From Nitrosotalea devaniterrae (GTDB lineage: Archaea; Thermoproteota; Nitrososphaeria; Nitrososphaerales; Nitrosopumilaceae), in assembly GCA_900065925.1 (NCBI GenBank), contig LN890280.1:178451-242450 (forward strand): DNA of 64,000 nucleotides, read 5' to 3'. Below are positions 7,106 to 64,000 of the stretch, in pieces (within the stretch, counting starts at the first letter, position 1; every line of letters starts with the position of its first letter). The translations under genes were made by a program, and so were the position numbers. Under the pieces are notes generated by a model. The model was given only the letters and a program-made list of their open reading frames with translations. It did no database searches and was not told where the DNA came from.

Positions 7106-7885
7106 TCACTTACTTGATTTTACATCTTTTGATTCTTTTAACAAGTATTCAAAATATTCACGAGCAAATCCTGCTAGGCCAGAATGATCTGCCCATATGG
7201 CAACTGCCTCCTTTGTTCCTGTTGTGCCAAGCTCTTCACCAAGAAGTAAAACAACATATCTTTTATCGGAAATTATTCCTCCTCCGAAGAGACCTCTCTT
7301 TACTTTTACCGTTGCTAGTCTTGATAATGACTTTAACGTATCCGCCTCTACATCTTCTGAAACTAAAATTGTAATGTCCACTCCTCTATCATGTAAAAGT
7401 CTGATCTTTGGCAAGGCTTCTTTTGCCAATTCTTCTGCAACCTTGGGAATGGCAATCATGACCTCATTTCTACAAGAGTCTACCATCTCGAGGATCTTTG
7501 TTGCAATGTTTATCACACCTGAAATTATCCAAATGTCTGGACGTTCACTTATCCCACTTTGTTCATAGAGTGGAGTGAGTTCCTTGAGTACAATATTTTC
7601 ATTATTTCTAAATTCTGTCTCAAACTGCTGCTTTGATGTCTGGATTGCAGTGGCTGGAGATTTTGCAAAATATTGCGTTGGTCTTGAATCATCAGAGCCT
7701 ATCCATCCTTTCTCTTCAAGCGTGCCTAGGACCTCATAAATTTTTGAATATGGCACACCTGATTTCTGGCTCAGATCAGAGGCAGTAATGGGACCTGTTT
7801 TTAAAAGTGAAGAATAAGTCTTGATCTCATAACTTGTGAGACCCATTTTTTCCAGTGACTTTCTTGCCTTGTCTGATAGACTCAT
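7106..7885 (-). CDS. TrmB-family transcriptional regulator
   Basis: 259 residues from the ATG at 7885, chosen because a TATA box (7910-7917) lies about 28 bases upstream; a longer frame to 7960 would start before that promoter. Residues 1-75 form a winged helix with LTSYEIKTYSSLL and SGVPYSKIYEVLGTLEEKGW, the TrmB signature. The rest resembles the ligand-binding alpha/beta domain of TrmB proteins, without the long sugar-binding tail. It is divergent from the radical SAM gene at 8017, which it might control. Confidence 0.82.
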   Translation of the reverse strand: MSLSDKARKSLEKMGLTSYEIKTYSSLLKTGPITASDLSQKSGVPYSKIYEVLGTLEEKGWIGSDDSRPTQYFAKSPATAIQTSKQQFETEFRNNENIVLKELTPLYEQSGISERPDIWIISGVINIATKILEMVDSCRNEVMIAIPKVAEELAKEALPKIRLLHDRGVDITILVSEDVEADTLKSLSRLATVKVKRGLFGGGIISDKRYVVLLLGEELGTTGTKEAVAIWADHSGLAGFAREYFEYLLKESKDVKSSK

Positions 7886-7909
7886 GTGATATGATCGGGG
7901 GCTCTTTTG

Positions 7910-7917
7910 ATATATAT
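7910..7917 (-). promoter_or_regulatory. TATA box of TrmB-like gene
   Basis: An ATATATAT element centred 28 bases before the ATG at 7885. The spacing fits a leaderless archaeal transcript and decides the start codon. Confidence 0.6.
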
Positions 7918-8016
7918 GTCTAGGATTGGGCTTTTTGTAGGAAGGAACTAACCTATTCATCTGGTGTCTTGTAGGAAATGGATTAAATACTATCTCCTAA
8001 GATATGCGTATAAGAC

Positions 8017-9681
8017 ATGGAATTAATTCAGATATCTAATCAGAAGACTCCTACTCTAGGCAAGAAATCAACTATAAGATTTACTCAGAGTATCTGCCCT
8101 GAATGTAATATGATACTTGACGCAGAGGTCTTTGAAAGAGACGGTAAGGTATTCATGACAAAGACTTGTCCAACACACGGAGAATGCGAAGAACTCTATT
8201 TTGGCTCTTATGACATGTACAAAAAATTCAGTACCTACTGGATTGACGGAAAAGGTGCACATGCTCCAAACGTAATGATTGACAAATGTTCTTGTCCTAA
8301 CAACTGTGGTTTGTGTTCTAATCACTTGTCTCACAGTGGACTGGCAAACATGATAGTTACAAACAGATGTGATTTGACATGCTGGTACTGTTTCTTCTAT
8401 GTAAAGAAAGGACTTGAAGGCGCATACATGTATGAACCATCCCAAGATCAAGTACGAGCAATGATGAAGACATTGCGAGCAGAAAGGCCAATTCCAGGAA
8501 ACTCTATGCAGATTACTGGTGGTGAACCAATGCTTAGAGAAGATATTGTCGATGTTATCAAAATAATGAAAGAAGAAGGTGTTGATCACATTCAGATGAA
8601 TACAAACGGAATCAGATTTGCACTAGATCCAGAAGCAATGAGAGAAGTAAGACTTGCAGGTGTAAACAATCTCTATCTTAGTTTTGATGGTGTAACTCCC
8701 AGAACAAATCCAAAGAATCACTGGGAAATTCCATATGCACTAGAGAGTGCAAGAAAGACAGGAACTACAGTAGTATTTGTTCCAACAGTTATCAAATCAA
8801 TCAATGATCATGAATTAGGTCCAATTATCAGATATGCTCAAAAGAACATGGATGTTGTCCATGCAGTAAACTTCCAACCAGTATCATTGACTGGAAGAAT
8901 GGGCAAGAAAGAACGTGAAAAATATAGAATTACAATACCAGACTGTATACAAAGAATTGAAGAACAAACACAAGGTGAAGTAACAGTAGACGACTGGTTC
9001 CCAGTTCCAAGTTGCATGCCTCTAACAAACGTAATTGAAGCATTCTCTAGCAAACCAAAGTATGAACTCTCAATCCACTTTGCATGTGGTGCAGGAACAT
9101 ACATCTTTGAAGATGCAGAGACAAAGAAGTTTGTACCATTGACAAGATTTGCAGACATTCAAGGAATGTTAGAACTCTTTGAAGACAAGGCCGAAGAAAT
9201 CAAGTCTGGAAAGAACAAGTACTTTACAATGCTCGAAGTAGTAAGAAAACTCTCAAGCTTTATCGATAAAAAGAAACAACCAGCAGGTCTTGACTTGGCA
9301 AAGATGTTCGGTAGCATCTTGATGAAGAGATCGTTTAATTCTGTAGGTTCATGGCATGTCAAAGGCCTGTTCTTGGGCATGATGCACTTCCAGGACAAAT
9401 ACAATGAAGACCTTGAAAGACTCCAGAGATGTGATATCCACTATCTTACACCAGACTTGAGAATCGTTCCATTCTGTGCCTTTAACGTAATTCCAGAGTG
9501 GTACAGGGATAGAATCCAAAAGAAATATTCCATATCTGTAGAAGAATGGGAGAAAAGAGTTGGAGTAAAACTCGAAGATGGTCTATACAGAGGAATCATG
9601 AGAAGAGGTTCAGGTGATGAGCTTGCAGCTGGTTGTGCAAAGAGCCAGATGATGCATGAAGCATCACAATCTCTAATGTAA
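8017..9681 (+). CDS. tes: Radical SAM protein, probable tetraether lipid synthase (Tes)
   Basis: 554 residues. The radical SAM cluster motif is C118-x3-C122-x2-C125 (NRCDLTCWYC), followed by GGEP (ITGGEPML) and the barrel. Extra cysteine sets precede it (C27/C30, C51, C91/C93/C97/C100) and more cysteines come late. This layout matches the MJ0619/Tes family, which joins two archaeol chains into membrane-spanning GDGT tetraethers. Thaumarchaeota make GDGTs, so the role fits, but related paralogs exist. A TATA-like ATTAAATAC about 31 bases upstream supports the ATG. Monocistronic, followed by a hairpin terminator. Confidence 0.75.
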   Translation: MELIQISNQKTPTLGKKSTIRFTQSICPECNMILDAEVFERDGKVFMTKTCPTHGECEELYFGSYDMYKKFSTYWIDGKGAHAPNVMIDKCSCPNNCGLCSNHLSHSGLANMIVTNRCDLTCWYCFFYVKKGLEGAYMYEPSQDQVRAMMKTLRAERPIPGNSMQITGGEPMLREDIVDVIKIMKEEGVDHIQMNTNGIRFALDPEAMREVRLAGVNNLYLSFDGVTPRTNPKNHWEIPYALESARKTGTTVVFVPTVIKSINDHELGPIIRYAQKNMDVVHAVNFQPVSLTGRMGKKEREKYRITIPDCIQRIEEQTQGEVTVDDWFPVPSCMPLTNVIEAFSSKPKYELSIHFACGAGTYIFEDAETKKFVPLTRFADIQGMLELFEDKAEEIKSGKNKYFTMLEVVRKLSSFIDKKKQPAGLDLAKMFGSILMKRSFNSVGSWHVKGLFLGMMHFQDKYNEDLERLQRCDIHYLTPDLRIVPFCAFNVIPEWYRDRIQKKYSISVEEWEKRVGVKLEDGLYRGIMRRGSGDELAAGCAKSQMMHEASQSLM

Positions 9682-28090: not shown

Positions 28091-29038
28091 TTAATACATG
28101 GAATCATATTCTTTAGGCATTTTTAGATATGGCTCGAATCTAGGATTTGGTTCTACAATTAATTTTGAATTCTGTGGAAATAGTGTAGATATATGATAAT
28201 AGCATTTTGCAAAAAATTGATTTATTTTCGTTCTATGTTTAGGAAATCTGTCCTGCATTGGTTCGTAGTATTTCTCGATTGGCACTTTCTTAGTAAGTAG
28301 GTCTTTCCATTGTTCGTTGGCAAGATCAACAAGACTTGGTCTTGATTCCCAATTTTCAAAAACTTTTGGATTCTGATCTGCATATTTTGTAGCAGTAAAT
28401 CTAAAGTGAATTTGTGCTCTCCTGTATTTTTCCCTTCCAACACACGACCCCTTGTGAACTATTGCTTCATGAAAAAATAATAAATCGCCAGCTTTTACAG
28501 GAACACAAATTTCATTTTTCAAATGACCTCTTATCGTAGAATTACTTCCTTCCAAATCTTTGTTGCCCTTCTTATGACTTTTTGGTACGACATAAAAACC
28601 GCATTCATTATACAGTGGAAGAGTTGCCTTTATGCTAATTGTCTTTCCATCCAGTTCTATAGCGTCTCGGTGCCAATTCTGCCATGTACTATATCTGTAA
28701 GTTGTATGCATTCTGTTAAATGACATGAAAATATCATTATGTCCATAATGGGCCATGATCTCATTTGAATATTCTGCTATTTGTGAATCCATTATGGCTT
28801 TGAATATGTCAATCTCAAAAATATCTGGATGAAAAACATGTTCGATTTTCTCTATCATTTTATTCGAAATTTTTCCATTTGCTCTGTGATACGGATAAAG
28901 TCGTTTTTCACACTTTTCAATCATTCGCCTACTTGCTTCTCTTGCCCTTTCAAGTGATTCGTATGCCACATTTTTACTTACTACTAGATATCCTTCCTCA
29001 TCAAAAAATTTCTTTTGTGCTTCTGAGAGAAAGTTCAT
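28091..29038 (-). CDS. Phytanoyl-CoA dioxygenase (PhyH) family oxygenase
   Basis: 315 residues from ATG 29038; a TATA-like element 27 bases upstream argues against the TTG at 29059. The iron facial triad can be placed: H-x-D in WHRD and the distal histidine in IVHKG, followed by RRAQIHFR with the 2-oxoglutarate arginine. It should hydroxylate a small molecule or glycan intermediate using Fe(II) and 2-oxoglutarate. Homologs occur in antibiotic and glycan clusters. Substrate unknown. Confidence 0.85.
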   Translation of the reverse strand: MNFLSEAQKKFFDEEGYLVVSKNVAYESLERAREASRRMIEKCEKRLYPYHRANGKISNKMIEKIEHVFHPDIFEIDIFKAIMDSQIAEYSNEIMAHYGHNDIFMSFNRMHTTYRYSTWQNWHRDAIELDGKTISIKATLPLYNECGFYVVPKSHKKGNKDLEGSNSTIRGHLKNEICVPVKAGDLLFFHEAIVHKGSCVGREKYRRAQIHFRFTATKYADQNPKVFENWESRPSLVDLANEQWKDLLTKKVPIEKYYEPMQDRFPKHRTKINQFFAKCYYHISTLFPQNSKLIVEPNPRFEPYLKMPKEYDSMY

Positions 29039-29152
29039 TACTAATTTGGATGGAAACAACTATTAATATTTTTCACATTTTTAACATTTGACAGTTACGA
29101 TTTAACCAACCAAGTAATAAGAATTAATATGTAAGGAATAATCAGAATATCG

Positions 29153-29863
29153 ATGAACATACTGGTAATTGTTGCACACCCTGACGACGAAATTTTGGGT
29201 GCAGGTGGCGCAATTCTAAAACATACTCAAAAAGGCGATATTGTAAAAATAATATATCTAGCTACTGGGATTACTTCTAGACGAAAATCTGGACATCATA
29301 ATGTTTCATCATATGAATCTAAAACAAATGATGTTAAACATATGAAAAAAGAGATTGAAGATCTACGAACTGATGCAAGGAAAGCTTGTAGCCTATTGAA
29401 AGTCAAAAATGTGAAATTTTATGAATTTCCAGATAATGAAATGGATTCAATTCCACTTTTAAAAGTAGTAAAGACTATTGAGACAGAAATTGAGATGCAT
29501 AAACCTACTCGGGTTTATACTCATCATTATGGAGATCTGAACGTTGATCACCAAATAGTATATGAAGCAACACTGACTGCATGTAGGCCAGTTAATACTA
29601 CTGTTAAGGAGCTGATTTGTTTTGAGGTTCCTTCTTCAACTGAATGGAATTATCCCATTACCTTCAATCCTAATTATTTTGTTAATATAAAATCTCAATT
29701 AGAAGTAAAAATAAAAGCCATGGAAGCGTACAAAAATGAAATAAGAAAATTTCCGCATCCTAGATCATCAGAAAACCTCAGAGTAGTTGCTAAGAGATGG
29801 GGCAGTGTTTCTGGTAATGAAGTCGCTGAAGCATTTGAAATCATACGAATGATTGAAAAGTAA
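29153..29863 (+). CDS. PIG-L/LmbE family N-deacetylase
   Basis: 236 residues. The zinc motif AHPDDE (residues 9-14, VAHPDDEILGAGG) and the later HHYGDLNVDH box with two histidines are those of LmbE/PIG-L deacetylases, which remove acetyl from GlcNAc-type substrates. The full sequence length and a tail with EAFEIIRM are normal. In this cluster it may free an amine for reacylation or methylation. The next gene (WbqC-like) is convergent, 3 bases away. Confidence 0.9.
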   Translation: MNILVIVAHPDDEILGAGGAILKHTQKGDIVKIIYLATGITSRRKSGHHNVSSYESKTNDVKHMKKEIEDLRTDARKACSLLKVKNVKFYEFPDNEMDSIPLLKVVKTIETEIEMHKPTRVYTHHYGDLNVDHQIVYEATLTACRPVNTTVKELICFEVPSSTEWNYPITFNPNYFVNIKSQLEVKIKAMEAYKNEIRKFPHPRSSENLRVVAKRWGSVSGNEVAEAFEIIRMIEK

Positions 29864-29866
29864 TTT

Positions 29867-30556
29867 TTACCAATTTTTAGAATTGGCTAAAATAGTTTTG
29901 GTATTGTCTCCCTCATTGAAAAGAACATCTATTATAGAAAGATATGGTATGAATTCTCCGTGAATCTGTCTATATATTGGGTGTTCGAATTTCTCAAATA
30001 TTACTTCAATTCCGGCATTCTCAAACAATTTTACATCCAAATAATTTTTTCCTATTTCTCCAGAAATATAACAAGTTGCTCCTAATTTTTGACAAATTTC
30101 TAATAATTTAGTGGATTTTGTTGATTTTGTATCTAGCTCGGATGATCTAACTGTTTTTGTAGTCAAATTTAACACTGAACAAAAATATTTGATAAACTCT
30201 AAATTCAAGTCTATTAGTTTTTTCCATTCTTTACTTAGAATATTCTCAATAGAATTCCAGTATCTGTCAAAGAAAGGCGCCACTTTATAATTTTCTTTTA
30301 TGCTGTTTCTGTGTTTTTCTCTCCAATCCATATCATTAGCTATTTTGATTTCATTAAATTTTATATCATGTGGTTTTGATATGGGAACTGGTAATATTTT
30401 GGTTCCTTGAAATGTTCGAATTTTATTTTTGTTATCTCCGCCTCCCGTGGAATATAGAACATCATCAAGATGTACAAATACATCACATGTTTGTATTTTT
30501 TTAAAATATCCTAAATATGGCAAATAACCTGGTTGTCTAATTATGACTTTTGTCAT
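29867..30556 (-). CDS. WbqC-like family protein
   Basis: 229 residues. The front RQPGYLPYLGYFKKI and DVFVHLDDV, then NRRIR-like KNKIRTFQGTKILPVPI, follow the WbqC family, found in O-antigen and nonulosonic-acid clusters and thought to act as acyl or amino-acid transferases. No catalytic residue is known to me. It shares the island context with PseG- and PseB-like genes just beyond. Reaction open. Confidence 0.82.
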   Translation of the reverse strand: MTKVIIRQPGYLPYLGYFKKIQTCDVFVHLDDVLYSTGGGDNKNKIRTFQGTKILPVPISKPHDIKFNEIKIANDMDWREKHRNSIKENYKVAPFFDRYWNSIENILSKEWKKLIDLNLEFIKYFCSVLNLTTKTVRSSELDTKSTKSTKLLEICQKLGATCYISGEIGKNYLDVKLFENAGIEVIFEKFEHPIYRQIHGEFIPYLSIIDVLFNEGDNTKTILANSKNW

Positions 30557-57580: not shown

Positions 57581-58189
57581 ATGTCTGAGCAAAATTCTGC
57601 CAAGGATGCCCTATCACGACGTGACTTTCTTAAATTACTTGGCGCTGCTGGAGTAGCTTTAACATTTACACCGTTTGTTCCATGGGGCAAATTCATGCCT
57701 AATCCATCAAACGCTTCCCTTGAGAGAGCTCAAGTAATTTTACCTGATGGAACACAGGCAAACGTCAAGACTTTTCCAAAAAATCATTCTGAGGTTATCA
57801 CTTATCCAAAAACAGGCGATTCTGTACTTGACCAAGAGGCATTCAAAAAATGGCAGTTTATTCGATTGCCTGAAGAACTTGGCGGTGACAAGGACGATGT
57901 TAGCGCTTTTCGCGCCTATAGCATGGTCTGCTTACATTTGTGGTGCTTGTGGAAATACTGGCCACAAGAAGGTAGAAAAAGAGGGGAATGTCCATGTCAT
58001 GGAAGCATGTATAATCCATTGAATGGAAAGGCATTTGCAGGACCTGCATCACTTCAAGCTTCTCCGTCAAATGTACTTGCAACTCTTTATTTTGAAGCTG
58101 ATAACGATGGAAATTTGTGGATTAAACCAGCTGTATGGTCTGTAAACGAAAATGGAGTAGTGGGGTATGGTCGTTTCCTTAAAACGTAG
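57581..58189 (+). CDS. Rieske [2Fe-2S] protein of cytochrome bc complex
   Basis: 202 residues. A Tat signal (SRRDFLK at 12-18) leads into a hydrophobic helix. The two Rieske boxes are C117-L-H119-L-W-C122 and C137-P-C139-H140-G; C117, H119, C137 and H140 bind the cluster, and C122 and C139 form the disulfide. It takes electrons from quinol at the outer face. Its last 23 bases overlap cytochrome b. Confidence 0.92.
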   Translation: MSEQNSAKDALSRRDFLKLLGAAGVALTFTPFVPWGKFMPNPSNASLERAQVILPDGTQANVKTFPKNHSEVITYPKTGDSVLDQEAFKKWQFIRLPEELGGDKDDVSAFRAYSMVCLHLWCLWKYWPQEGRKRGECPCHGSMYNPLNGKAFAGPASLQASPSNVLATLYFEADNDGNLWIKPAVWSVNENGVVGYGRFLKT

Positions 58190-59603
58190 AAACGGTCTAG
58201 TAGATTTCTTCTACTGGATATGGGATGGAATGGAGCGAACTGTATTCATCGGTACAAAGTTCTCATTCCCTGCAAGATTTGTAAGCCCATTTGGATTTTT
58301 GGGAATGCTCACATTTGTGATATTCATAATTCTAGGAATCACTGGTGCGCTACTGATGTTTTACTATCAGCCAATACTTGATAGGGCATGGGATAGTGTT
58401 GCCAAAATCAATGATACTGTTCCATATGGATTTATGATAAGAAATATTCATTATCACGCTTCAAATGCAATGGTTCTGCTTGCAGTACTTCACATGTATT
58501 ATCAATACTTTAGTGGAAGATACAAGATAAGAAATGAAATCATCTGGGTTACAGGTGTAGTACTGGGTACTGTGACTATCTTGGAAGCATTTACCGGATA
58601 TGATATTATATTTAGTGAACGCGCCGAGCTTGCAATCAGTATAGCTGCATCACTTACAAATTCCATGCCAGTAGTTGGACCTACTATACGTGATGCCATG
58701 TTTGGTTCAGGCTTTGCTGACTTTATACTTAGATTCTATACGATGCACGTATTTCTCTTACCGATAGTAATGCTAGGATTGATGGCAGTACACATGCCCA
58801 GATTCTTGGTATTTGATGTACCGATGGTTATGGCAATCTCAGGTGCCATATTTCTAACAGGAGGAGTCTTTCCAGTAGATCTTGGTTCCAAGTTTGAACC
58901 GACTGTACCTCCAGGGATTACAGTGCCGGAATGGTATCTTACTGGAATCTATGCATTCCTAAGGACGCAGTATGACAAATTTGTGACAGGTGTGCTCTGG
59001 CCTGGCATATTTATTGTAGCGATAGCTATGACACCATTCATAGATAGGTACAAGAAATTCTCATGGAAAGATAGACCAATAGTAACAGCATTTGGTATTA
59101 CTGGTATTACACAAGTTATGGTTACCACATACTGGGGCTTTTACATTACACCTGATGTAACCAAGCCGCTAGTTGCAAGACTTGTAATCGATCCGATATT
59201 CTTCTATCTGATAATGTTATTGCTAGTTCCAATTGGATTTGGATTCTCATACATGATGATATTGCTTGCAAAAGAATCAGAAAGAAAGGCAAAACTTGCA
59301 GCATCAAAAGGCCCACACAAAGCATCTCCAATTAATCTCTCTGGCAAATGGATCAACTGGTTGATCATAGGACTACTCGCATTCCAAGTATACCTTAACA
59401 TTGCAGCATACAATGCAGCCCTGAGTGGAATGAAGAACTTTGCTCTATTCCTAACTGGGTTGATTCTCATGGTATTTGCAGGTCTATTCCACTTGTATAG
59501 ACACGGACTAAATGAAGCAAAGAAGATTCCAACTCCATCACCTGCCGAGCCCGAATCTCCAAAACCGCTTGACAGTAAAGAATCGCCTAGTCTACCACAG
59601 TAA
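58167..59603 (+). CDS. Cytochrome b of complex III (bc1/b6-type)
   Basis: 478 residues, eight or nine membrane segments. Four heme histidines are visible: IHYHASN, LHMYY, TMHVF and AVHMPR. The quinol-site PEWY motif is VPEWYLTG. A proline-rich cytoplasmic tail (about 450-478) is added. With the Rieske protein it forms the quinol oxidase part of the ammonia-oxidation respiratory chain. ATG at 58167 overlaps the Rieske gene by 23 bases, so translation is coupled. Confidence 0.95.
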   Translation: MVVSLKRRNGLVDFFYWIWDGMERTVFIGTKFSFPARFVSPFGFLGMLTFVIFIILGITGALLMFYYQPILDRAWDSVAKINDTVPYGFMIRNIHYHASNAMVLLAVLHMYYQYFSGRYKIRNEIIWVTGVVLGTVTILEAFTGYDIIFSERAELAISIAASLTNSMPVVGPTIRDAMFGSGFADFILRFYTMHVFLLPIVMLGLMAVHMPRFLVFDVPMVMAISGAIFLTGGVFPVDLGSKFEPTVPPGITVPEWYLTGIYAFLRTQYDKFVTGVLWPGIFIVAIAMTPFIDRYKKFSWKDRPIVTAFGITGITQVMVTTYWGFYITPDVTKPLVARLVIDPIFFYLIMLLLVPIGFGFSYMMILLAKESERKAKLAASKGPHKASPINLSGKWINWLIIGLLAFQVYLNIAAYNAALSGMKNFALFLTGLILMVFAGLFHLYRHGLNEAKKIPTPSPAEPESPKPLDSKESPSLPQ

Positions 59604-59673
59604 ATCTAGGCTGTATAATCTGGATTGATCTTTATTTTTTGTTTTGTTAAATGTCTCAATTATTTTTGTATAG

Positions 59674-59682
59674 CTTTATAAG
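59674..59682 (+). promoter_or_regulatory. TATA box of the cupredoxin gene
   Basis: CTTTATAAG centred 29 bases before the TTG at 59707, which supports the TTG as the start of a leaderless message. Confidence 0.55.
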
Positions 59683-59706
59683 ACTAAAAAAAAGATTGGC
59701 AAACAG

Positions 59707-60177
59707 TTGAGTCTTCCATCCTCCAGTCATGCGTATGGGATCGGATTAATCGCAGTTATTGTAGGTGCCGCTCTTGGAGTTTCATATTACCAGCTTTATT
59801 TCATACCTGAACTTAATGCAAAACCAATAATTCCAGAAAAAATTCTCCATCCTGGTGATACAACTACTATTATCATTGTTCCTGGTGCCGAAAACCAAGC
59901 ACAAGAGCAAAACTTTACTCCAAAGACTACAAAGGCGCAGCTTGGAGTAAATAATCTTGTAGTCTGGAAGAATACTGGTGAAACTGCCCATACTGTTACT
60001 CCTGACAAGCCGTTCAAGGATCAGTTCAGCGGTGACTTTGGCTCTCCTGGAGTCATCAAGCCAGGTGCTAGCTATCAATTCACGTTTACACAGGAAATAG
60101 TCGTTCCGTATCATTGTGATCCTCACCCATGGATGAAAGGACAGATAACCATAGAACACGGAGCCTTGACATCTTAA
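59707..60177 (+). CDS. Blue-copper (plastocyanin-like) protein
   Basis: 156 residues. An amino-terminal membrane segment (about 7-27) anchors a cupredoxin domain with copper ligands in ETAHTVT (His) and YHCDPHPWM (Cys, His, Met). It is an electron carrier at the outer surface, likely between complex III and the terminal oxidase. A TTG start is supported by a TATA box. It stands alone after cytochrome b with a 103-base gap. Confidence 0.93.
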   Translation: MSLPSSSHAYGIGLIAVIVGAALGVSYYQLYFIPELNAKPIIPEKILHPGDTTTIIIVPGAENQAQEQNFTPKTTKAQLGVNNLVVWKNTGETAHTVTPDKPFKDQFSGDFGSPGVIKPGASYQFTFTQEIVVPYHCDPHPWMKGQITIEHGALTS

Positions 60178-60187
60178 AATTATAAAT

Positions 60188-60538
60188 CTAGGACATTAAT
60201 TTTCCAAAAACAATATCACTTTCAATCTCTTTGTGTTCTTGAATTACAGATGCTCTAAATTTTATTTCATGAGTTTCTTTTGGCTCAAATTCTATTGAAG
60301 CTGTAAATTCTACTGAATTTTGTTGCATGTCATTTTTGTTGATAAACAGTCTTGAGAGATTCTGTGATATGGTTTTACCATTGTATGATCTGTAGACTAT
60401 GAGTTGGTTTGAACCCAAAATTTGGGCATTTACTACTACCCCATCATATCTTCCAGAATAGTTTACCTGAATTTTTCCCTTGATTATTTCATGAGGTTTG
60501 AAAGTCAGATTTTCTAATTTTAGTTCAATCTCTTTCAT
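60188..60538 (-). CDS. Hypothetical arrestin-like beta protein
   Basis: 116 residues from ATG 60538. Mostly beta-type with the pattern LENLTFKPHEIIKGKIQVNYSGRYDGVVVNAQI, and a strand-rich end. It resembles arrestin/SpoOM-type beta-sandwich proteins. No catalytic residue is visible. It is convergent with the cupredoxin gene (10 bases apart) and divergent from the repeat and response regulator. Confidence 0.6.
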   Translation of the reverse strand: MKEIELKLENLTFKPHEIIKGKIQVNYSGRYDGVVVNAQILGSNQLIVYRSYNGKTISQNLSRLFINKNDMQQNSVEFTASIEFEPKETHEIKFRASVIQEHKEIESDIVFGKLMS

Positions 60539-60618
60539 GTTGTGTTTGATCTTCTGATGAAGATAATTAAATTATTGGAACTTGGAAAAACACTTGAATT
60601 ATCTAGAAAGCGGGCCCG

Positions 60619-60698
60619 AAGGTTCGCACTAGATCAGTTCTAGCGCGTCCACCCCATTTTTTTGATTTTTTATTAACTTATTGTAAATTTGTTAATAA
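60619..60698. repeat. 80-base direct repeat, copy 1
   Basis: Matches 61199-61278 in the same orientation with two mismatches (positions 60626 and 60654). It holds a 9-bp inverted repeat (60626-60634 with 60640-60648, loop 5, one G-U or A-C pair) and then T-runs and AT-rich DNA. A perfect CGGGCCCG palindrome at 60611-60618 precedes copy 1 only. Confidence 0.9.
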
Positions 60699-60760
60699 TG
60701 GTAATTTTGTCTGTATTGATCTTCCAGAATATTTGTAGTATATTGAGATATACAATACAA

Positions 60761-60770
60761 TACTATAGTT
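60761..60770 (+). promoter_or_regulatory. TATA box of the response-regulator gene
   Basis: TACTATAGTT, about 27 bases before the GTG at 60793; supports the GTG start and an independent promoter between the repeats. Confidence 0.5.
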
Positions 60771-60792
60771 AGTATCCAAAGGTTGATTCCAA

Positions 60793-61146
60793 GTGAAAAT
60801 TCTCGTGGTAGATGACAACAAAAGCATCTGCAATATGTTGCAGAAATTTTTAGAGATAAAAGGACATGATTGTACAGTTAGTCTAGATGGGAGAAATGCG
60901 TTGGATTTGATGCTGCATCAAAAATTTGATTTTGTAATACTTGATCTGACCATGCCCGAGTTTAGTGGTTATGATGTCATCGAAGAGCTTGAAAAAAATG
61001 GCAAAGTCGAGGAACAAAATATCATATTGCTCACGGCTGCTTCCCTCACAACTGATATTATTAACTCCCTTCTGAAACGAGGAGTAAAATCTTGTCTTAA
61101 AAAGCCGATCACACCAGATGTTTTGCTGAAAACCTTGATGTCTTAA
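60793..61146 (+). CDS. Single-domain response regulator (CheY-like)
   Basis: 117 residues, GTG start. The receiver fold is complete: VVDDNK (acid pocket D7-D8), D51 in ILDLTMPEFSG as phosphoacceptor, LLTAAS with the switch threonine and LKKPIT with the conserved lysine. No output domain, so it signals through a partner. No histidine kinase is in the window. The gene lies between two 80-base direct repeats, copy 2 beginning about 52 bases after its stop. Confidence 0.9.
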   Translation: MKILVVDDNKSICNMLQKFLEIKGHDCTVSLDGRNALDLMLHQKFDFVILDLTMPEFSGYDVIEELEKNGKVEEQNIILLTAASLTTDIINSLLKRGVKSCLKKPITPDVLLKTLMS

Positions 61147-61198
61147 CCAAAAGGTTTGAGTTCTGTAAATTTCGCCAAAACAGTTCTAATAAAATTCT

Positions 61199-61278
61199 AA
61201 GGTTCTCACTAGATCAGTTCTAGCGCGTCCACCACATTTTTTTGATTTTTTATTAACTTATTGTAAATTTGTTAATAA
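61199..61278. repeat. 80-base direct repeat, copy 2
   Basis: Copy of 60619-60698 at a distance of exactly 580 bases. The hairpin followed by T-runs could end transcription of the response-regulator gene. It lies between this gene and the end of the convergent S-layer-like gene. Confidence 0.9.
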
Positions 61279-61318
61279 CATAAATTTTGATGTTGTTTCA
61301 AAACTCTTTTCCTTGAAT

Positions 61319-62080
61319 TTATTTTTTGATCTTGTTTATGTCGTCAAATGTAAAATGGACAACTTGATCACCGCCAGCTTTCTGATAATCTACAGTTACT
61401 GTTGATGGAATTGTTGAAAAGTCATAGAGTTGGATTATTGGCCAAACTTTGCCTATTGCAGTCATATTAAGACCTAAACCAAATCCGTTTGGATTAGTGT
61501 TAATGGTCTTGTAATGTCTTATGACATCTTCTAGAAAAACACCCGTAATACCACCTGTTGCCAAACATGAATTGGTAATTGGATTGGATACTGTAGAGCC
61601 TTCAAGAGAACCTGTGACTTTTGTAGCTACAGTGTATCCCATAGTTTCTGCAAAGCTTAAACCCGTCTTCAAGTTTGCAGCAAAAGTATCACCACTAGTA
61701 CCACAGAAGGTACCAAAGTTTACGCCCCTAATTCCAACTGAAGATGTTTTATCAGATGCAATTGCTTGATTTCTATCTGCAAAGTATGCATACCAATTTC
61801 CGTCTGTAGCCTGCATCATCCTCAGCCTCTTGCCATTGACGGTCACAAGAGGTTCGCCATACTGTTGGTTTAATTTGTGTATATCAGGATCAGATACAAC
61901 AACCTTGATTACTCGAGAATCGGAAAAGTGATTATTGTGTTGAACGTGTTCAGCAGATACAAACAAGTTTGTATTACTTGTTGCATGCACTATTGGAATT
62001 GTGTATGGCAATCCAATCACGGCACTACCAAAAATTAGTATTGTTAGTAGTGTTAAACCATATCTTTTGTTCGTATACAA
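61319..62080 (-). CDS. Secreted protein resembling the N-terminal part of thaumarchaeal S-layer proteins
   Basis: 253 residues. A signal peptide (about 1-33, ending HATSN) is followed by VIKVVVSDPDI, LVTVNGKRLRMMQATDGNWYAYFADR and VNFGTFCG, a series I associate with the first repeat of Nitrosopumilus-type S-layer proteins. At 253 residues it is far shorter than an S-layer monomer, with no anchor segment. It could be a minor surface protein. Family link rests on memory of motif, so moderate. Confidence 0.6.
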   Translation of the reverse strand: MYTNKRYGLTLLTILIFGSAVIGLPYTIPIVHATSNTNLFVSAEHVQHNNHFSDSRVIKVVVSDPDIHKLNQQYGEPLVTVNGKRLRMMQATDGNWYAYFADRNQAIASDKTSSVGIRGVNFGTFCGTSGDTFAANLKTGLSFAETMGYTVATKVTGSLEGSTVSNPITNSCLATGGITGVFLEDVIRHYKTINTNPNGFGLGLNMTAIGKVWPIIQLYDFSTIPSTVTVDYQKAGGDQVVHFTFDDINKIKK

Positions 62081-62272: not shown

Positions 62273-62842
62273 TTAGGGCAGTTGCCACAGACTTACGGTG
62301 TAATTTTTTTCGCCAACCTGATCATGCAATCCAATCTTAAAATCATTTGTACCATATTGGTATATCGTGGAATTCAAATCACTAAATGCTTGACCGGGGA
62401 ATGCATTCTCAAGAACGTCAGGTACATTGAATTTGAATTGTTTATAGTAATGGTAATACAAGTCATTACAACTTGTATCAATGGTCTTTAGATCTGTGCG
62501 TATGAATGATCTACAATGATCATAAACGGCAATAGGTACACGATTATCTTCATTTGTTGATGTCACGCTATTTTGTAGGTTAGAAATTGATTGTTGTCCC
62601 TGTAAAGATATTCGTTGAATCGTACTACCCGTATTGTTGATAACTTTGTTAGCCTCATTCTGTATATTTTGAGGGGTTCCATAGGTTTGCAAAACAAAGT
62701 ATCCCCCAATTAACACGCATATTATGGCTGAAAATATGATGATGATTCGTTTGGTGCCTGATTGCCCGGAATGTCTTTTTACGCCCTTGTAACGATTATC
62801 GTTTTTGCCATTCTTCCAACTACGCCAATCATCATCACCCAT
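62273..62842 (-). CDS. Hypothetical membrane protein, possibly frameshifted at the 3' end
   Basis: 189 residues: a basic start (to ~30), one membrane segment (about 33-52), then an outer domain. Frame 1 ends at a TAA at 62273. A one-base insertion in the A7 tract at 62304-62310 would instead continue for about 40 codons (HYGGESWKVQTSENPLNYYD) to a TAA at 62178-62180. The extension looks protein-like. Sequencing error, phase variation or natural change cannot be separated here. Confidence 0.65.
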   Translation of the reverse strand: MGDDDWRSWKNGKNDNRYKGVKRHSGQSGTKRIIIIFSAIICVLIGGYFVLQTYGTPQNIQNEANKVINNTGSTIQRISLQGQQSISNLQNSVTSTNEDNRVPIAVYDHCRSFIRTDLKTIDTSCNDLYYHYYKQFKFNVPDVLENAFPGQAFSDLNSTIYQYGTNDFKIGLHDQVGEKNYTVSLWQLP

Positions 62843-63767: not shown

Positions 63768-64000
63768 ATGATTGTAATTTCAGTATCAAAACGATGGTAT
63801 CATCCAAGATCGGAGGTAAGACAGCATGGAAAAAACGGTGCAAAGAAGCGTTGGTTTGTATTTTATTTGGATGAAGATGGCAGATTCCGCTCAAAAAGGA
63901 TTCAATGGTACGAGGTTTTGTGGTACAAATCTCAAAAACACTACAAAAGAAGATTGATTTGTCTTGATTGCGATAGAGAGTTTTTCGGATATGTCAGGTC
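63768..64000 (+). CDS. Hypothetical zinc-finger-like protein, 3' end cut by window
   Basis: Open from ATG 63768 to the window end, 77 codons without stop. Residues run MIVISVSKRWYHP, then KKRWFVFYLDEDGRFRSKRI, WYEVLWYKSQKHYKRR and CLDCDREFFGYVR, with one CxxC pair at the end. Strong basic content suggests nucleic-acid or RNA binding. TATA-like DNA at 63729-63737 is about 35 bases upstream. Family unknown to me. Confidence 0.6.
   Translation, partial: MIVISVSKRWYHPRSEVRQHGKNGAKKRWFVFYLDEDGRFRSKRIQWYEVLWYKSQKHYKRRLICLDCDREFFGYVR

Follow-up and report, generated by a model that had tools for sequence, protein, structure and literature searches.

The two direct repeats that flank a response regulator gene in the DNA analysed here, a window of 64,000 nucleotides, are most probably the left ends of small integrative elements, which a tyrosine recombinase would insert into the 3′ end of a tRNA-Arg(UCU) gene. 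The limits of the island, its empty site, the recombinase gene beside the tRNA and the inverted arms around a 12-bp core can each be read from the sequence itself (Table 1). It is an even question whether the island consists of two stacked units, namely unit A (~580 bp), which holds the regulator and lies on the side of the flank gene, and unit B (~4.9 kb), which holds the recombinase gene and lies on the side of the tRNA. In the proposed mechanism the recombinase would bind the arms, and the ends of an excised circle would be joined as right arm, core CGGGCCCGAAGG and left arm.

The repeat pair had been described in the initial annotation as two 80-base copies enclosing a single-domain response regulator, and this description holds: the copies (60619-60698 and 61199-61278) are identical at 78 of 80 positions with a spacing of 580, and the open reading frame (ORF) between them encodes a receiver domain alone. 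A repeat search extends both copies to 91 nt, over which their identity is 93%. With copy 1 as the BLAST query against the 1.805-Mb genome, copy 2 was found at 138 bits (E 6.3e-34) and no third copy was found at E <= 0.001; a repeat model adds two weak matches in this genome (E 0.0018 and 0.016). The T-runs reported for the copies are present in both, whilst the 9-bp inverted repeat ascribed to each can be seen in copy 1 with one mismatch (CGCACTAGA/TCTAGCGCG) and is weaker in copy 2.

Table 1. Position of the island features, in window coordinates
Feature	Position	Strand	Basis or remark
Flank gene, 116 aa, outer side of island	60188..60538	-	tblastn marker in 24/29 loci; conserved beside tRNA-Arg(UCU) in relatives
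Displaced tRNA-Arg(UCU) 3′ end, attL core GCGGGCCCGAAGG	60610..60622	-	Same bases continue into tRNA in empty relatives
Repeat copy 1, putative left end of unit A	60619..60709	+	Repeat search and relatives
Left arm in copy 1, ATCAGTTCTAGCGCGTCC, inverted relative to right arm at tRNA	60633..60650	-	Joint best PWM match; left-arm score 19.9
Single-domain response regulator	60793..61146	+	PF00072, E 6.5e-22, residues 3-115 of 117
Weak right arm of unit A, AAATTTCGCCAAAACAGT	61167..61184	+	Score 4.3; 18 nt from core end (reference 17)
Inner junction core AAAATTCTAAGG	61191..61202	+	Recurs in other genomes
Repeat copy 2, putative left end of unit B	61199..61289	+	Repeat search and relatives
Left arm in copy 2	61213..61230	-	Joint best PWM match
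Unit B ORF, 253 aa, no family	61319..62080	-	Pfam, PHROG and NCBIfam scans
Unit B ORF, 189 aa, no family above cut-off	62273..62842	-	Pfam and NCBIfam scans
Unit B ORF, 90 aa, zinc-ribbon-like below cut-off	63768..64000, continuing past window end (L038:219-491)	+	Pfam scan
Cys-containing ORF, 185 aa, divergent from recombinase	64037-64594 (L038 488-1045)	-	ORF reading
Recombinase, 437 aa, beside tRNA-Arg(UCU)	64648-65961, past window end	+	Relatives, fold match
Right arm	about 66044-66061, past window end		Beside tRNA-Arg(UCU)
Intact tRNA-Arg(UCU)	from 66066	-	5.46 kb from displaced end, 2 kb past window

The island at tRNA-Arg(UCU)

Copy 1 overlaps a 13-bp displaced 3′ end of tRNA-Arg(UCU), and the intact tRNA carries the second copy of that 3′ end, CGGGCCCGAAGG, at window coordinate 66067. 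The bases to the left of copy 1 continue into tRNA-Arg(UCU) in eight relatives; in G018 they do so only to the contig end. Loci were compared in 29 of the 37 genomes of the genus, those with a match to the tRNA, and the flank gene, whose family is found in neither Pfam nor NCBIfam, served as the marker. The site was found to be empty in 11 loci and filled in 13, and five loci, in which the flank gene was absent from the stretch examined, were not judgeable. Flank gene and tRNA end are separated by 79-91 bp in the empty loci and by 647, 737, 974, 1086, 1086, 1095, 1317, 2321, 2768, 2771, 2811, 3498 and 5535 bp in the filled loci, lengths that include the normal spacer; the shortest (G013, 647 bp, GC 0.57) was scored as filled by distance alone and may be ordinary spacer. 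The empty and filled loci of relatives therefore place the start of copy 1 at the insertion boundary. The features of a tRNA genomic island in the Islander sense were found together here, with the intact tRNA at one end, the displaced fragment at the other, a tyrosine integrase gene inside and an empty site in relatives.

The earlier proposal of a movable cassette is upheld in kind, in that the repeats appear to be ends of integrative elements and the site is empty in 11 of the 24 judgeable loci of relatives. A duplicated target, proposed alongside it, can be accepted for the 12-13-bp tRNA 3′ end adjoining copy 1 and not for the 80 bp; the notion of the 80 bp as a tRNA-derived repeat was rejected, its tRNA part being the 13-bp remnant only. 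At the empty site of G036 (L123, contig C135), GATTAAACGGG stands before the tRNA end and resembles the right end of an element, whilst the close relative G017 has GGAAAACGGG; the G036 sequence is perhaps an excision scar.

A comparison of the seven island proteins with the PHROGs gave weak matches and receiver-domain families without an assigned function, and nothing else. A 202-aa ORF at the same place in G004 may be the counterpart of the 185-aa ORF (22% identity, pairwise E 0.002), and the latter is perhaps an accessory factor. Just outside the island (window 57581-60177), genes resembling those for a Rieske protein, cytochrome b and a cupredoxin were recognised by eye.

Arms, repeat copies and recombinase

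The tRNA-side end of the element reads AGGACGCGCTATATCAGATTAA, then CGGGCCCG. A near-identical arm lies beside recombinases that are 74-80% identical, at tRNA-Arg (L176, L177, L178) and at tRNA-Met (L202, where the recombinase is 74% identical), and was not seen by eye in 19 other tRNA-side sequences, those away from tRNA-Arg(UCU). A PWM was built from nine right arms with the repeats excluded, four of the arms (G005, G008, G030, G032) having been chosen by eye, and was scanned along the window on both strands (127,964 positions); the top two matches were the two repeats, with a score of 22.2 vs 12.6 for the third. In the distribution of arm identity, 14/18 is reached by exactly two 18-mers of the window, and these were taken as the two repeat copies. 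Since the PWM of tRNA-proximal arms has its best matches in both repeats, in inverted orientation, each repeat is read as the left end of an integrated element.

The arm test was then repeated, trained this time on five recombinase-bearing elements alone. Among the 12 other filled loci, five have the right arm at a fixed spacing (G005, G008, G012, G030, G032; p <= 8.6e-5) and G020 comes near (p 1.3e-3); the right arm was not found in G002, G003, G013, G027, G031 or G033 (p 0.029 or more), nor in any of the 11 empty loci (p 0.29 or more). The left arm is clear in the window's genome (G000) and in G033, marginal in G005 (corrected p 0.05) and, taken alone, not significant in the ten other filled loci of the 13. 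A different right end is common to G002, G029 and G033. On these results, some of the filled loci thus hold other types of element.

A repeat model (R1) was built from 13 copies and run over 200 genomes of the family. Because it was built from those copies, its strong matches within the genus are the training copies themselves, and the independent evidence consists of the weaker matches in the genus and the matches in other genera. Outside the genus, seven strong copies (E <= 1.3e-11) were found in five genomes of two genera, and these seven only were examined; the weaker matches in other genera have E values of 9e-5 to 2e-6 (e.g. G116, G043, G131, G135, G108, G055). In five of the seven, a homologue of the marker flank gene is 41-92 bp away, with tRNA-Arg(UCU) in view for two of those five (G155 (L312) and G090). 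The copy on C133 of G126 has a tRNA-Met-like core, and that on C8 of G090 is an inner-type site. On a single contig of G090, a left repeat (C5:18676), a recombinase gene (28756-30024) and tRNA-Arg(UCU) (30109) make up an 11.4-kb element with the same ends.

Two further observations concern the origin and spread of the repeat. The core GGGCCCAAAGG, seen in L003/L042 (G016 C18) and L307 (G126 C133), fits tRNA-Met(CAT), and the outer flank is partly common to both. A viral origin was considered and set aside, as four exact 17-mer matches in viral contigs sit in flanks unlike the repeat; no relative of the recombinase was found encoded in viral contigs at the sensitivity used.

The recombinase itself has no Pfam, PHROG or NCBIfam model above cut-off, and relatives of it are present in 23 of the 37 genomes of the genus, G000 included. 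A tRNA was called by ARAGORN 48-304 bp from the matched stretch in 22 of the 28 recombinase loci scanned, and its orientation is unusual in two of those 22 (L066, L077); the tRNAs near recombinase relatives are Val, Arg, Ala, Lys, Gly and one unassigned. Across 27 aligned recombinase sequences, R202, K247, R329, H356 and Y364 are invariant, and these are presumably the catalytic set of a tyrosine recombinase; PF00589 was matched by two of the 27 members (best E 1.1e-5). The predicted structure (27 rows, mean pLDDT 78.7; a poor 9-sequence version with mean pLDDT 50 was not used) matched XerA (E 1e-7), VchIntIA and Cre (E 2.7e-5) in Foldseek, with low TM-scores of 0.22-0.44. In a comparison of the recombinase profile with PDB sequences, the only low-E matches were TAL effector repeats over a short helical stretch (residues about 51-104), and these were taken as spurious. 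The recombinase of G004 lies at the tRNA, and the flank gene is absent from its contig. In G032 (C294; L120/L077) a recombinase relative (52%) is found 5′ of tRNA-Arg(UCU), with the insert on the 3′ side.

The proposed unit A, its inner junction and other explanations

The chances are about equal that the stretch 60623-61190 is, or is not, a unit of its own. This unit A (about 580 bp) contains one gene and no recombinase, and the regulator that it encodes is probably cargo. The nearest relatives of the regulator in the genus are 67-69% identical (G021, G028, G026), the repeat not being in view there, and the DNA before the relative in G021 and G026 resembles on reading the end of a histidine kinase gene. 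As for a tandem of units, the two left ends are clear and the right end of unit A is weak: its right arm has p 1.1e-3 for one position and 0.064 when corrected for the 59 tried. The inner core AAAATTCTAAGG, in which no tRNA end can be recognised, is also present in G019 and G090 C8, and in G025 with two differences. In G025, G019 and G033 C51 the right arm scores best at a distance of 17-18 nt from the end of the core (corrected p 0.30, 0.018 and 0.001). The arm is present in four of the six inner junctions examined and absent at the expected spacing from those of G033 C11 and G002, as it is from the other six of the 12 sites, which are outer flanks or unclear.

If the island is a stack, unit A would have been joined at the left end of unit B through a common AAGG, with the recombinase acting in trans. 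This place of joining is proposed because unit A is without a recombinase and its inner core, not being that of the tRNA, would not have regenerated the tRNA; for the latter reason an arrival of A before B was also rejected. Alternatively, A and B would have arrived as one composite.

Sites away from the tRNA offer circumstantial evidence that bears on recombination there. In G033 C51 and G002 (C1, about 811.1-811.9 kb) homology extends to the right arm and ends at the core, after which a left end follows in G033 C51 and unrelated sequence in G002. In G025 an inner-type site is contained in a ~1.4-kb insertion, and the genes on either side of this insertion are adjacent or almost adjacent in other genomes. 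All three sites match what would be expected of recombination at non-tRNA sites. A variable intergenic spot between two genes was observed in G025 (L041 about 7155-8577, contig C10) and at the same locus in G018 (L228) and G009 (L229), with content that differs between genomes. In G025 the spot is flanked by AGTCCTGTAAGAC, which resembles the end of a tRNA T-arm and whose core is single-copy in G000. To the right of the G025 site (L041 about 8401-8535), a ~130-bp stretch is repeated at 78-96% identity, scattered in several genomes of the genus. A second core, TCCTGTAAGAC, was considered as a widespread cassette site and rejected, as G000 has one copy of it.

At tRNA-Arg(UCU) in relatives, the cargo includes a response regulator (G005), a winged helix protein (G005, above cut-off, and G030, below), a ParE-like toxin after a small ORF (G033, below cut-off), a zinc-finger-like protein (G020, below cut-off), a HipA-like kinase (G003), pentapeptide repeats (G002) and a GXGXG motif (G027). 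The odds fall only a little short of even that such short inserts, unit A included, are remnants of larger elements whose recombinase was deleted, with no movement in trans. Tandem integration and integrase loss are described for archaea in PMC8371274 and PMC6563490, the former for loss of the integrase gene after integration; a recombinase match is found in none of the 12 other filled inserts at tRNA-Arg(UCU), and most ends are degenerate. Against decay stand the good right arms kept in the inserts of G005, G030 and G032 and the whole-looking ORFs in several.

More doubtful is a single element whose left end was duplicated internally, by unequal recombination or gene conversion, leaving the regulator between the copies as a result. 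Such an event is favoured by the closeness of the two copies, which are nearer to each other than to other copies in the genus (best 89%), and by the weak right arm of unit A. However, the inner junction has its own core, which together with right-end-like sequence is found at other loci in G019, G025 and G090 C8, and the sequence after copy 2 repeats none of the regulator.

Folding was also considered. Copy 1 folds better than shuffled sequences (z -2.86 on the + strand and -3.81 on the - strand, flank included in both), whilst copy 2 hardly does so (z -1.26). Over the 13 aligned copies 68.9% of cells pair, vs 68.6% in column shuffles and 27-49% in slid versions, the excess over the latter being expected since the structure was derived from one row of the alignment. 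No Rfam family reached its gathering score in the region, where the only two matches scored 22.6 vs 44 and 15.4 vs 42. A dispersed terminator or small RNA, the reading for which the initial annotation would have looked to many copies at the ends of unrelated genes, is thus highly improbable despite the hairpin-like stretch and T-runs of each copy and the folding of copy 1, as there are two copies and two weak model matches in G000, no Rfam family, pairing equal to that of column shuffles, and a position tied to the tRNA flank.

Comparison with known systems

An island at a tRNA gene is ordinary in kind; less ordinary are the very small inserts without a recombinase and the second, non-tRNA core common to two genera. 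Among the papers listed in the literature searches, none was seen on the 80-base repeat or on cassettes of Nitrosotalea, and the island may already be listed in the supplement of PMC6563490. The reading of the repeats as ends of integrative elements suggests that small regulatory and toxin-like genes could be exchanged among ammonia-oxidising archaea by way of a single tRNA. The end sequences are defined and the recombinase can be tested in vitro; the ends also allow ~1-kb inserts that lack an integrase gene to be recognised.

A bolder reading, which is possible and on present evidence unlikely, is that of an integron-like system anchored in a tRNA, where the 3′ end of tRNA-Arg(UCU) would be the docking site, the recombination sites would consist of arm, core and arm (the core being that of the tRNA or AAAATTCTAAGG), and sub-kilobase units would be stacked there, and also placed at intergenic sites, by a tyrosine recombinase that acts in trans. 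In this reading a unit would carry one gene or two (for a response regulator, a ParE-like toxin or a zinc-finger-like protein), and the hosts would be ammonia-oxidising archaea.

As in the tRNA genomic islands of Islander (PMC4383910), a regenerated tRNA and a displaced fragment form the ends and the integrase lies inside; unlike those islands, the present one has an archaeal recombinase subfamily without a Pfam match of its own and possibly a stacking of very small units. Cryptic integrated elements in tRNA genes of Thaumarchaeota have been reported with a median att core of 17 bp, the smallest being 2.6 kb with an integrase (PMC6563490), and they resemble the elements described here in their tyrosine recombinase, insertion at the tRNA 3′ end, short core (here 12-13 bp) and small size, whereas here the filled sites can be as short as about 0.6-1.3 kb, with no recombinase, and the core of an inner junction is not that of a tRNA. 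The Integrons of Archaea (PMC9668308) differ in that the docking site here is a tRNA gene and the sites have two arms around a core; attC-type folding finds no support in the pairing over 13 copies, which equals that of column shuffles. If A is a unit, the two systems nevertheless have in common a tyrosine recombinase, small cargo units lined up at a docking site and many arrays without a recombinase.
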